NCBI GenBank assembly: GCA_001797815.1
Contig: MGQK01000132.1
Span: 11,745-17,468 of the forward strand
Origin: Deltaproteobacteria bacterium RBG_13_61_14
GTDB lineage: Bacteria; RBG-13-61-14
DNA: 5,724 nucleotides
Direction: 5' to 3'
The notes below the pieces were generated by a model. It was not told where the DNA came from. It did no database searches and saw only the letters and a program-made list of their open reading frames with translations. Position 1 is the stretch's first letter. Each line of letters starts with the position of its first letter. The position numbers were made by a program, and so were the translations under genes. This document shows, in pieces, positions 2,028 through 5,724 of this stretch.

Positions 2028-2057
2028 TTGACTCAAGGCCGTAAAGTTAGGACATGA
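2028..2057 (+). CDS. putative nine-codon leader peptide, translationally coupled to the downstream gene
   Basis: TTG at 2028 opens a frame of nine codons (Met/Leu-Thr-Gln-Gly-Arg-Lys-Val-Arg-Thr) ending in TGA at 2055-2057. The TGA overlaps the ATG of the PEP-synthase-like gene as ATGA. A strong Shine-Dalgarno-like sequence sits at normal distance upstream, whereas the main ATG lacks a usable one. This arrangement is typical of termination-reinitiation coupling. The peptide has no runs of a single amino acid that would suggest classical attenuation. The ORF is very short and the start is TTG, so coincidence is possible; alternatively the main ATG may be used without a strong SD. Confidence 0.35.
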   Translation: MTQGRKVRT

Positions 2058-4585
2058 CCTGGTTTCGCCAGATTTTCCAGCGCGGGCAGGAAGACTCGGA
2101 CGCGTCATTAAAAGCGGTCCAGGACAAGTTCCAGAGTTTCCTGACCCTGTTGGACAAGAACAACCAGGTCCTCAAGATGATGAGCGACATGGAAGAAAAG
2201 TCGCAAGGCGAATATCTTTTTGACATCAACTATATCCGTTCCAGCTTGTCGGAAGTGCGCTTGGGGGTCCAGGCGATCATCAGCCATATGATTACTTTGG
2301 GGGGAGAGGGCTACGCCTGCCTCCAGGACCGCTACGGGGAAATTGACGCGGAGGTGGAAAAGATCCTGCCCGGCAATCGCCCGATCCCGCAGGACGCTTT
2401 CATTATCCCCTTTGATGGTCTGGGCCGGGAGCGGGCCCCCAGCGTGGGGAGCAAGAACGCCCAGTTGGGGGAAATGTGGAAGCTGGGTTTGCCGGTGCCC
2501 GAGGGTTTCGCCATCAGCGCCTGGGCCTACAAATATTTTATGGACGCCAACGATCTGCAGGAGCGGATCAGCCGGCTGCTCGAGTCCCTTGACCTGAAGA
2601 GCTACGAGGACCTGGAGAAGAAGAGCGAAGAGATCCACGCCCAGATCATGGGCTCGCCGGTGCCGGAAGACCTGGCCGAAGAAATCCGCCAGAGTCATGC
2701 TACGCTCCGCAAACGGTATCCCTCGGGCCGGATCGCCCTGCGTTCGAGCGCGATCGGGGAGGACACCCAGTTCAGTTTCGCCGGGCAGTATGCTTCCTTT
2801 CTCAATGTGCGCGGCGAGGAGCTGGTCAATTGCTACCGGGAGGTTCTGGCCAGCAAGTTCTCGCCCAAGGCGATCTACTATTTTTTAAGCCACGCCTTGA
2901 CCGAGTCGGAGCTGGCCATGAGCGTGGGCTGCGTGGCCATGGTGGACGCGGCGGTGAGCGGGGTGATCTACACGCGCGACCCGGTGCGGCCCGATGACCA
3001 TTGCCTCATGGTCAACGCCATTTACGGCCTGGGGAAGTACCTGGTGGACGGCACCCTGACCCCGGACGTGTTTTGGGTGGATCGGGATAAGGGCACGGTG
3101 AAGGAAGCCAGGGTGGCCACCAAGCCGGTGCGGCTGGTGATGCGGGAGGAAGGCGGGACCCTGGAAGAATCGGTGCCCCGGTCCGAGCAGGAGGCTCCCT
3201 GCTTGATCCCGGAGCAGCTCCAGATGCTCAGCCGGTTCGCCCTCAAGCTGGAAAACCACTACGGCTGTCCCCAGGATATCGAATGGGCCATTGACCGCGA
3301 AGGCCGGCCGTTCCTGCTCCAGACCCGCCCGCTGCGGCTGATCAAGGTCCCGCCCCAAGCGCCCGATGTCTCGCAACTGCCGGTGCTCCTCTCCGGAGGC
3401 ACCACCGTCTGCCCCGGGGCCGGCGCCGGCAAGGTCTTCCACGCGACCTCGGCCCATGACCTGCCCCGGGTCCCGGAAGGCGCGGTGGTTATCGCGCCCC
3501 ATCCTTTCCCGGGACTGATCACGGTGATGGGCAAGGTGCAGGCGCTGGTGACCGTGGTCGGGGGAGTGGCGAGCCACATGGCCACCCTGGCCCGGGAATA
3601 TCGGATCCCGACCCTGGCCGGGGTCGAGCGGGCGGAAGAACTCAAGGAGGGCGGACTGGTGACCGTGGACGCCACCCACGCGGTCATCTACGCCGGGGTC
3701 CACCCCGAGCTGATGGCGGCGCGCCGGCCCGAATACGAGCTCTTCGATGACACCGCCATCATCGCCCTGCTCAAAGAGCTGCTGGTCCCGATGTGCTCGC
3801 TCCACCTGCTCCACCCGGCCGACCCGGACTTTATCCCGGAAAACTGCAAAACCTTCCACGACCTCACCCGCTACGCCCACCAGAAAGCCATGGAAGAGAT
3901 GTTCTCCGGCGCCAAGACCATCGAGCACAAGGAGCGGATCGGGCTGCGGCTCCGGAGCGAGATCCCGCTCCAGATGAACATCATCTTCCTGGATCAGAGC
4001 GCTCCGCCGGGACCGGACAAGCGTTGGATCAGCGAGGAGGAGCTCCTCTCCGAGCCGATGCAAGCGTTCTGGAGCGGGATCAAGCGCGAGGGCTGGCCTT
4101 CGCGGCCGCCGCCGGCCGACTTCAAGGGGCTGATCGCGGTGATGGGCAAAGCGGACCACGTGGAGTTCTCCCAGAACAGCTTCGCCATCCTGAGCAGGGA
4201 ATACATGATCCTGAGCCTGGGCATGGGGTATCACTTCACCTCGGTGGAGGCGATGGCCACGGCGGAGGCGAGCAAGAACTACATCCGGATCCAGTTCAAG
4301 GCCGGGGGGGCCTCGCTCGACCGCCGGCTGCGCCGGATCCGGCTGATCATGGAGATCCTCACCCGGATGGGCTTCGAGAACTCCAGCCGGGGCGACTTCC
4401 TCGACGCCATGCTCAGCTACCAGGGCCCCCAGGCCATCGCCGAGAAACTCCATCTCCTCGGCCGCATGACCATGATGACCAAGCAACTGGACATGGCGCT
4501 CTCCAGCGACGCGGTGGCCCAGTGGTACACCGAAGACATGCTGAAAAAGCTGGGCCTGGTCAAGGCCGGAAAGGACCAGCCGTGA
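2054..4585 (+). CDS. PEP synthase / pyruvate phosphate dikinase-like protein with non-canonical C-terminal domain
   Basis: Soluble 843-residue protein. Residues 1-114 form a charged, mostly helical extension. Residues about 115-430 are a PPDK-N ATP-grasp domain: GSKNAQLGEM (132-141, Lys134), VPEGFAIS (148-155), ALRSSAIGED (228-237, Arg230), SGVIYTRDP (302-310), and DIEW (408-411) with LLQTRP (421-426). Residues about 448-550 are the swivelling phosphohistidine domain, with GGVASHMATLARE (503-515) and His508 as the expected phosphoacceptor. Family enzymes move phosphate from ATP through this His to an acceptor, usually pyruvate bound in a C-terminal TIM barrel. Here residues about 560-843 show no barrel motifs or catalytic Cys; they contain His-rich LHLLHP and TFHDLTRYAHQ (582-610) and a later NYIRIQFKAGGASLDRR (742-758). 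The phosphate acceptor is therefore unknown. The regulatory Thr two residues before His is Ala506. TAG at 2048-2050 bounds the ATG start. The stop overlaps the sensor gene start (GTGA), implying an operon. Confidence 0.85.
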   Translation: MTWFRQIFQRGQEDSDASLKAVQDKFQSFLTLLDKNNQVLKMMSDMEEKSQGEYLFDINYIRSSLSEVRLGVQAIISHMITLGGEGYACLQDRYGEIDAEVEKILPGNRPIPQDAFIIPFDGLGRERAPSVGSKNAQLGEMWKLGLPVPEGFAISAWAYKYFMDANDLQERISRLLESLDLKSYEDLEKKSEEIHAQIMGSPVPEDLAEEIRQSHATLRKRYPSGRIALRSSAIGEDTQFSFAGQYASFLNVRGEELVNCYREVLASKFSPKAIYYFLSHALTESELAMSVGCVAMVDAAVSGVIYTRDPVRPDDHCLMVNAIYGLGKYLVDGTLTPDVFWVDRDKGTVKEARVATKPVRLVMREEGGTLEESVPRSEQEAPCLIPEQLQMLSRFALKLENHYGCPQDIEWAIDREGRPFLLQTRPLRLIKVPPQAPDVSQLPVLLSGGTTVCPGAGAGKVFHATSAHDLPRVPEGAVVIAPHPFPGLITVMGKVQALVTVVGGVASHMATLAREYRIPTLAGVERAEELKEGGLVTVDATHAVIYAGVHPELMAARRPEYELFDDTAIIALLKELLVPMCSLHLLHPADPDFIPENCKTFHDLTRYAHQKAMEEMFSGAKTIEHKERIGLRLRSEIPLQMNIIFLDQSAPPGPDKRWISEEELLSEPMQAFWSGIKREGWPSRPPPADFKGLIAVMGKADHVEFSQNSFAILSREYMILSLGMGYHFTSVEAMATAEASKNYIRIQFKAGGASLDRRLRRIRLIMEILTRMGFENSSRGDFLDAMLSYQGPQAIAEKLHLLGRMTMMTKQLDMALSSDAVAQWYTEDMLKKLGLVKAGKDQP
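4572..4575 (+). promoter_or_regulatory. ribosome binding site supporting the GTG start of the sensor gene
   Basis: AGGA, within AAAGGA inside the end of the upstream gene, lies 6 bases before GTG at 4582. This normal spacing supports GTG as the start of the sensor rather than the internal ATG at 4648-4650, which would fall inside the first membrane helix. Confidence 0.6.
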
Positions 4586-5724
4586 GCGGCTTCGGATCGC
4601 GACTGGGCCGGCTGGCCAGCTCTCTCCTCAACCTGCGCTACCTGCTCATGGCCAGCTCGATCCTGTTCTTCCTGGTCATCGGGATCGCTTTCTTCCTGGT
4701 CTATCAGAACGCCCGGGTCATGCACGAGCAGATCAACAACGACTTCAACCAGCAGCAGTTGATCCTGGCCCGCCAGGCCGCCTCCCAGATTGATGCGATC
4801 CTGAATGACGTCGAGCTGGAGATCGAAAGCCTGAAGCGCCTGCTCCCCGGTCGGCCGGCCGGCGCGCAGAAGGAGGCCATGCAGGCCATGTTCGAGCGCG
4901 CCAGCGGCAAGGGCCTGATCGAGATCGGCCTGGCCGACGCCGAGGGCCGGCTGGCGGCCTCCTACCCGGCGGAGAGTTCCCCGCTCAAGGACCCGGCCGC
5001 CCTCCTGGCCGACTGCCGCTGGGATGACGGGGGCCGGATGGTGCTGGGCCCGTTGCGGGAAGCGCTGCCCCGACCCGACCATTACACGGTCGCCAGCACG
5101 CTTTGCGCCCGGATGCCGCCGGGGGCTGCAGCGGGCGAAGTGCTCTTTGCCCGGCTGGACGTGTCGCGGCTGGTCTCGGGCGTGACCCGGGAGATCCGCT
5201 CGGGCAAGACCGGCTACGCCTGGGTGATTGACGAGACCGGGACTTTCCTCTACCACCCGGAGGCGGACTTCATCGGCAAGAACGCCTTTGTGGCGCGCCA
5301 GGAGCGGCAGCCCTACATCAGCTTCACCCAGATCAACCAGATTATGCGCAACCGGATGCAGAAAGGCGAAGAGGGCGCCGGGATTTACGAGAGCGGCTGG
5401 CACCGGGGGATCAAGGGCCGCATTACCAAGTTGATCGCCTTCACCCCGGTCCGAAGCGCGGCGCTGGCCCCGGGCCGGGTCTGGTCGGTGGCGGTGGCGG
5501 CGCCGATCAGCGAGGTGGCGGATACCGTGCATCGCTTGTATCTGCGCCATTTCGCGGCCGAGGCCGCGATCATCGCGGGCATGTTCGTGTTCGGGCTTTT
5601 GGCGGCCATCTACCAGCAGCGGATCTCGCAGGCGCTCAAGGAGCGGGTGAAGCAGACCGAGGCCAACCTGCACGAGACCGAGCGGATCTACCAGCGGGTG
5701 GTGGAACAGGCCACGGACATGATC
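4582..5724 (+). CDS. membrane-bound sensor with dCache and PAS domains, 3'-truncated by window edge
   Basis: The visible 381 residues begin a membrane sensor protein. Residues 20-42 are a transmembrane helix. Residues about 43-322 are periplasmic and resemble a double Cache (dCache) ligand-binding domain, with the characteristic SGKTGYAWVIDETGTFLYHPEADFIGKN stretch spread over 207-234. A second transmembrane helix spans about 324-344 and is followed by a charged coiled coil (about 345-368). The segment IYQRVVEQATDMI at 369-381 looks like the start of a PAS domain and is cut by the window end. The output domain (histidine kinase, GGDEF, or other) is not visible, so the signalling class is unresolved. 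dCache domains typically bind small ligands such as amino acids, amines or organic acids; the ligand here is unknown. The GTG start overlaps the upstream stop by GTGA, so the two genes are almost certainly translated from one mRNA. I chose GTG at 4582 for its spaced AGGA and because it gives a complete first TM helix. Confidence 0.85.
   Translation, partial: MSGFGSRLGRLASSLLNLRYLLMASSILFFLVIGIAFFLVYQNARVMHEQINNDFNQQQLILARQAASQIDAILNDVELEIESLKRLLPGRPAGAQKEAMQAMFERASGKGLIEIGLADAEGRLAASYPAESSPLKDPAALLADCRWDDGGRMVLGPLREALPRPDHYTVASTLCARMPPGAAAGEVLFARLDVSRLVSGVTREIRSGKTGYAWVIDETGTFLYHPEADFIGKNAFVARQERQPYISFTQINQIMRNRMQKGEEGAGIYESGWHRGIKGRITKLIAFTPVRSAALAPGRVWSVAVAAPISEVADTVHRLYLRHFAAEAAIIAGMFVFGLLAAIYQQRISQALKERVKQTEANLHETERIYQRVVEQATDMI

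Follow-up and report, generated by a model that had tools for sequence, protein, structure and literature searches.

A PEP-synthase-like phosphotransferase family with a predicted new C-terminal domain in place of the TIM barrel, found among two-component and sulfur-anion transport genes

What does a PEP-synthase-like protein do when the region that follows its catalytic modules is not the TIM barrel of PEP synthase? The question is raised by an 843-residue protein encoded in a stretch of 5,724 nucleotides (the window) from Deltaproteobacteria bacterium RBG_13_61_14. An earlier note, made from the sequence of the window, recognized ATP-grasp and phosphohistidine domains in this protein and proposed that the region behind them, here called CT, might serve another acceptor, by analogy with rifampin phosphotransferase (RPH). 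The gene and the parts of its product are laid out as follows:

2054..4585, + strand: PEP-synthase-like phosphotransferase gene with C-terminal CT domain; intact reading frame of 843 aa
2054..2398, + strand: N-terminal helical domain, residues 1-115; AlphaFold helices 2-49, 58-83 and 89-104
2438..3337, + strand: ATP-grasp domain (PPDK_N), residues 129-428; Pfam E 9.5e-88
3473..3676, + strand: phosphohistidine swivel domain (PEP-utilizers), residues 474-541; Pfam E 2.8e-16
3575..3577, + strand: codon of His508, the predicted phosphoryl carrier; kept in 149/154 homologues
3710..4558, + strand: CT domain, residues 553-835, a predicted acceptor or effector domain; no sequence match in Pfam, NCBIfam or PDB
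3857..3880, + strand: HDxxRxxH motif of CT (H602, D603, R606, H609), from homologue alignments
4277..4336, + strand: NY...GG...RRxRR motif of CT, residues 742-761, from the 78-homologue alignment
4582..5724, + strand: 5' part of a sensor histidine kinase gene (dCache-PAS-HisKA-HATPase), which runs on past the window end

The two catalytic modules are real. Pfam and a direct check of the sequence place K134, R230 and H508 at the positions given earlier, and the catalytic set of the 843-aa protein is complete (K134, R230, D309, E410, Q423, R425 and H508), the roles of these residues presumably being those known from PEP synthase and PPDK. Residues 112-549, which hold the ATP-grasp and His modules, match RPH (5hv3) with a VIA Z of 42 over 422 residues and PEP synthase (pyruvate, water dikinase; TIGR01418/PRK06464; 2ols) with a Z of 39, and it is over this span only that the full-length AlphaFold model resembles either enzyme. 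PEP synthase has the same ATP-grasp/His order and about 33% identity over 378 aligned residues. In contrast to it, the window protein is without a TIM barrel or catalytic Cys and has CT, a regulatory gene context and an N-terminal helical domain, the last being present in the CT family and absent from PEP synthase. The rest of the window, on the minus strand, holds a tRNA-Leu (CAA) gene at 1548-1634, between the phosphotransferase gene and an L,D-transpeptidase-like lipoprotein gene (567-1544, named by eye), and a fragment of a PHP-domain-like metallo-hydrolase (2-496, assigned by eye from MIDLHTHTTWSDG) that is cut by the window end.

The C-terminal region gave a different picture. Residues 553-843 had no meaningful match in Pfam, where TAD2 alone appeared with an E of 0.02, below its cut-off, and none among NCBIfam models or PDB sequences; 78 CT homologues searched against Pfam yielded nothing credible and one chance match, and their profile matched no PDB sequence. 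The NCBIfam models for PEP synthase match the protein in part, ending at residue ~550, with 334 bits against a cut-off of 598 and 311 against 740. PF02896, the model of the barrel, was absent from all three CT proteins of the window genome and was found there in two proteins, a 618-aa enzyme-I-like protein (contig C123) and a 1148-aa PPDK (contig C76). When the 78-CT profile was compared by hhalign with the barrel of this PPDK, the probability was 0.3%, as against 99.3% for the catalytic half of the family profile and the same PPDK. AlphaFold modeled CT alone as an alpha+beta fold (pLDDT 84) with no eight beta-alpha units in succession, and the catalytic Cys motif of the barrel is absent from the 843-aa protein. 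A divergent TIM barrel was rejected on the alpha+beta model, the absence of PF02896 and the hhalign result. The strong partial scores of the NCBIfam models might be taken to indicate an ordinary PEP synthase with a barrel too divergent to recognize, but they remain under the curated cut-offs and stop at ~550, and the same three results and the missing Cys motif make this explanation highly improbable. Most likely the window protein does not make PEP, whose formation is covered elsewhere because the same genome has a canonical, barrel-bearing PPDK on contig C76.

Structural comparisons likewise gave no known fold. Foldseek, which the earlier note had suggested together with homologue alignment as a way to tell a barrel from a distinct domain, returned nothing for the CT model at E < 0.001 (best E 0.024) and thus no barrel, while the alignments revealed invariant polar residues. 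The top score from VIA, a DALI-like method, was a Z of 6.6 to the MotA double-wing domain (4.4 A over 105 residues); because this best score sits within the noise band of the tool, no fold is assigned to CT. The hallmark of HD-domain phosphohydrolases is an H...HD...D motif on an all-helical fold; CT contains an HD dipeptide, its predicted fold is alpha+beta, and no HD structure was present among the structure matches listed. As judged from sequence and model comparisons, CT is a new domain in place of the TIM barrel in the dikinase superfamily, beginning nearer residue 553 than the 560 of the earlier delimitation. No description of it was found in the literature searched. Neither Pfam nor NCBIfam has an entry for the domain, and the proteins that carry it reach no more than partial PEP synthase scores.

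The window gene is not a singleton but a member of a large, undescribed family. Its own genome encodes two full-length paralogues (41% and 32-38%), and about 150 full-length homologues were found beyond it. A scan of genome contigs with four close alignment rows detected 77 CT loci in Nitrospirae, Deltaproteobacteria, Zixibacteria, Latescibacterota, Omnitrophota and others. In one sampled phylum, which we take to be Desulfobacterota, CT occurs in 146 of 395 genomes and 82 of 245 genera, with up to nine copies per genome; the search of the window genome's own phylum covered three genomes, and a search for CT on plasmids found none. Genome G025 (L028-L034) has nine CT proteins, three of them adjacent (L029). 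One of this genome's members, of 1,124 aa (L034:2355-5726), has ~220 extra residues after CT that appear beta-sandwich-like (LamG/DUF1080-like by eye). A 1,833-aa reading frame in L031 seems to owe its length to a misplaced start, since its first ~970 residues have no counterpart in any other member.

Alignment of the family defined the residues on which CT may depend. The alignment of 154 full-length rows, in which some loci are represented by overlapping copies, shows no variation at D603, H609, P668, H727, G751 and R761 and very little at H602, R606, D781 and D813, a conservation at least as strict as that of K134 (146 of 154) and H508 in the catalytic core. In the 78-homologue alignment N742 is kept in 77 rows and G751 and R761 in all 78. 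On the evidence of these alignments, the conservation of CT is far beyond chance. Several features picked out beforehand from the single sequence can now be sorted. The absence of a TIM barrel holds, as does the glycine-containing basic motif, which is strongly conserved as N742-Y743, G751-G752 and R757-R758-x-R760-R761. In the His-rich segment H602 and H609 are conserved, whereas H584 and H587 are peculiar to the window protein. The first of the two cysteines noted is indeed C581, which is not conserved; the second lies at 598 rather than 597, and is (70/78).

Comparison with known phosphohistidine systems shows CT in the position that the acceptor domain has in PEP synthase and PPDK. PPDK has the same order of ATP-grasp, His domain and acceptor domain, and CT replaces its barrel. 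PTS enzyme I has the swivel His domain in common and offers protein-to-protein phosphoryl transfer as a working model; it differs in using PEP as donor via its barrel and in having no ATP-grasp, and the window protein is without PF02896. In phenylphosphate and phenylphosphoamidate synthase the phosphorylated His is His512/569/571 of the alpha subunit. This residue is near the C-terminus of the subunit, so that no acceptor domain would follow it. RPH combines the same two catalytic modules with a non-pyruvate acceptor, and the analogy drawn earlier holds for the modules; it is unsupported in domain order, because the RPH acceptor domain sits between ATP-grasp and His domain (PMC4844700) and CT follows the latter. 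CT had no sequence match and no significant Foldseek match to RPH, and the NCBIfam model for RPH gave the window protein 220 bits against a cut-off of 999.

The genes around CT provide an indication of what it might do. The window gene and the sensor kinase gene share the letters GTGA at 4582-4585, where the stop codon of the former overlaps the GTG start of the latter, and the window gene heads a same-strand cluster encoding the histidine kinase, a receiver protein, TauE, TIGR02186, Usp, CBS and a DASS sodium/sulfate symporter, a family with just two copies in the window genome. The window gene shares an operon with a histidine kinase and a receiver, the context of a two-component partner. 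Among 39 loci with enough flanking DNA, two-component genes lie within 8 kb in 34, and an anion transporter as well in 27. A further set of CT loci consists of aprA-qmoA-qmoB-qmoC-TauE clusters; QmoC was confirmed in L027, and the QmoA and QmoB labels are HdrA-type matches combined with reading by eye. The second CT copy of the window genome has aprA, qmo-like genes and dsrAB in its vicinity; DsrA, DsrB and AprA there score above the NCBIfam cut-offs. A YkgJ-like cysteine-rich protein recurs by the aprA-qmo-TauE-CT clusters (L023:16103-16981, L027:8618-9349), and neither copy matched NCBIfam.

These neighbors bear on the suggestion that the protein is a small-molecule kinase comparable to RPH or phenylphosphate synthase, with CT binding a metabolite, perhaps a sulfur or carboxylate compound. 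The catalytic core is intact in most members, CT occupies the place of the acceptor domain of PEP synthase and PPDK, and an anion could be bound by its conserved Arg, His and Asp residues; the regulatory gene context may also be compatible with a small-molecule acceptor. However, the neighboring genes encode sensors, receivers, transporters and CBS proteins, not enzymes of catabolism, the domain order is unlike that of RPH, and several members without ATP-grasp or His508 keep CT beside kinase/receiver genes. We consider a kinase of this kind unlikely. Of the earlier proposal of a phosphotransferase for another acceptor, the idea of CT as acceptor or effector domain fits. A kinase of the antibiotic type, or one acting purely on small molecules, is disfavored, since the genes of the family stand within two-component/anion-transporter clusters and CT outlasts the loss of ATP-grasp or His508 in some members, leaving the rifampin analogy less likely than a regulatory phosphotransfer role.

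A link to sulfur metabolism emerged from the distribution of the family. In the 395-genome sample, a strong AprA match (E below 1e-100) is present in 140 of 146 CT-positive and in 23 of 249 CT-negative genomes, an association with a Fisher P of 3e-73 that ignores shared ancestry and is phylogenetically confounded. CT is nearly confined to AprA-bearing genomes. Given this near-confinement and the signaling and sulfur-anion transport genes nearby, the protein is therefore probably a phosphate-passing switch and not a metabolic enzyme. We favor, with somewhat better than even confidence, an ATP-driven phosphohistidine switch in sulfur-oxyanion control rather than a PEP synthase.

The same distribution could also point to an adenylate/pyrophosphate sensor, in which the dikinase half would work near equilibrium, His508 would report ATP versus AMP and Pi/PPi, and CT would relay this state to the kinase or transporter. 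The chemistry of PEP synthase and PPDK is reversible between ATP and AMP, which counts for such a sensor, as do the near-exclusive co-occurrence with AprA, AMP and Pi/PPi being products of sulfate activation (Sat, Apr), and the linkage to aprA-qmoABC and oxyanion transporters. It is, however, a refinement of the switch rather than a separate observation, and we give it a low probability.

Natural variants of the family offer a view of how CT relates to the catalytic core. The comparison took in 138 distinct sequences. All 125 members whose ATP/His core is intact keep R606 and H609. Six members have changes at these residues, and in each of the six the core has degenerated or been deleted: three Nitrospirae-type proteins have no ATP-grasp, a pair lacks the ATP-grasp residues, and in the last (L089:2742), classed by inspection of its alignment, the ATP-grasp domain is truncated. 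In the Nitrospirae-type proteins (L071:2445-4130, L072:3386-5008 and L079:8018-9655) ATP-grasp is cleanly deleted and His508 is replaced by Tyr, the N-terminal helices persist, and a ~760-aa kinase-like gene follows directly, then a receiver. In a core-less protein of L028/L009, H602 is replaced by Arg. The coupling is not absolute, because the pseudo-enzyme lineage of L156, L159, L172 and L174 has lost K134, E410, Q423 and H508 and keeps a perfect CT motif. In L156 (5889-8633 and 10770-13415), and likewise in L159, L172 and L174, a kinase/receiver pair and then an intact paralogue come after the pseudo-enzyme (K134A, H508R), an arrangement that suggests a heteromeric complex. Two further members counted as core-less, in L136 and L161, are probably truncated reading frames. 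On the tree, the core appears to have been lost about four times independently, and the majority of the core-less lineages show a changed HDxxRxxH motif. We read the pattern of substitutions as indicating that in most members the function of CT is bound up with phosphoryl transfer, and the link between motif and core fits an acceptor or effector domain.

The variants without a core could also be cited for CT as chiefly an oligomerization domain or a docking domain for the kinase/receiver pair, standing outside phosphoryl transfer: CT and the N-terminal helices persist where ATP-grasp or His508 is lost, and the tandem pseudo-enzyme/enzyme pairs hint at heteromers. Against this, the invariant His, Asp, Arg and Tyr residues look catalytic, and changes at R606, H609 and H602 track loss of the core; we consider this reading unlikely.

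In the switch that we favor, whose phosphorylation chemistry, acceptor and direction of control we infer, ATP in the ATP-grasp domain would phosphorylate His508, as the conserved catalytic residues suggest, and the swivel domain would then move and offer the phosphoryl group to CT, as expected from PEP synthase and PPDK chemistry. The acceptor or read-out site may be formed by the HDxxRxxH, GYH, NY-GG-RRxRR and D motifs, a proposal supported by their coupled loss with the core. The switch would act together with the sensor histidine kinase, the receiver, anion carriers of the TauE/TSUP, DASS or SulP families and, in many cases, a CBS protein, and the module would control the traffic or use of sulfur oxyanions in sulfate reducers of the APS route (AprA/Qmo). 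A bolder version, which we regard as speculative, would make the family a third type of bacterial ATP-histidine signaling and a signature regulator of dissimilatory sulfate metabolism: the dikinase module, in place of a histidine kinase, would charge its phosphohistidine in step with the ATP/AMP/PPi state that sulfate activation sets, and would pass the group to a new acceptor domain that controls the paired two-component system and the oxyanion transporters.

A related gene cluster has been reported in Desulfovibrio. The "nitrate cluster" of two strains comprises genes for TauE, a hypothetical protein, PtxB and a histidine kinase, a 360-bp receiver gene, the PPDK/PEP-utilizing gene DVU0246 and a phosphatase gene (Korte et al. 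2014, PMC4001038). At locus L164 the order is TauE, a 212-aa protein, a phosphonate-binding protein, a HAMP/PAS kinase, a 120-aa receiver and an 852-aa CT protein, which in this syntenic cluster takes the place of DVU0246; from this synteny, we infer that DVU0246 carries CT. DVU0246 and Dde_0604 resemble the CT family in their PPDK_N and mobile domains and in the adjoining receiver, histidine kinase and TauE genes, and they were annotated by catalytic domains only, the C-terminal domain being left undescribed there (PMC4001038). Strains with transposon insertions in DVU0246, DVU0247, DVU0250 and DVU0251 grew normally in 100 mM nitrate, and a leaky thiosulfate transporter was suggested by the authors (PMC4001038).

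CT proteins are thus a widespread variant of the dikinase superfamily, unrecognized in the libraries searched: the domain has about ten near-invariant polar residues and occurs in more than one third of the sampled genomes of a phylum rich in sulfate reducers, yet has no Pfam or NCBIfam entry. If these proteins are switches of sulfur-oxyanion uptake, they would help to explain the Desulfovibrio nitrate-resistance cluster. They would also caution against counting CT-family genes as PEP synthases in metabolic models, and would provide a handle on the control of respiration in sulfate reducers, with a bearing on souring control and sulfur cycling.
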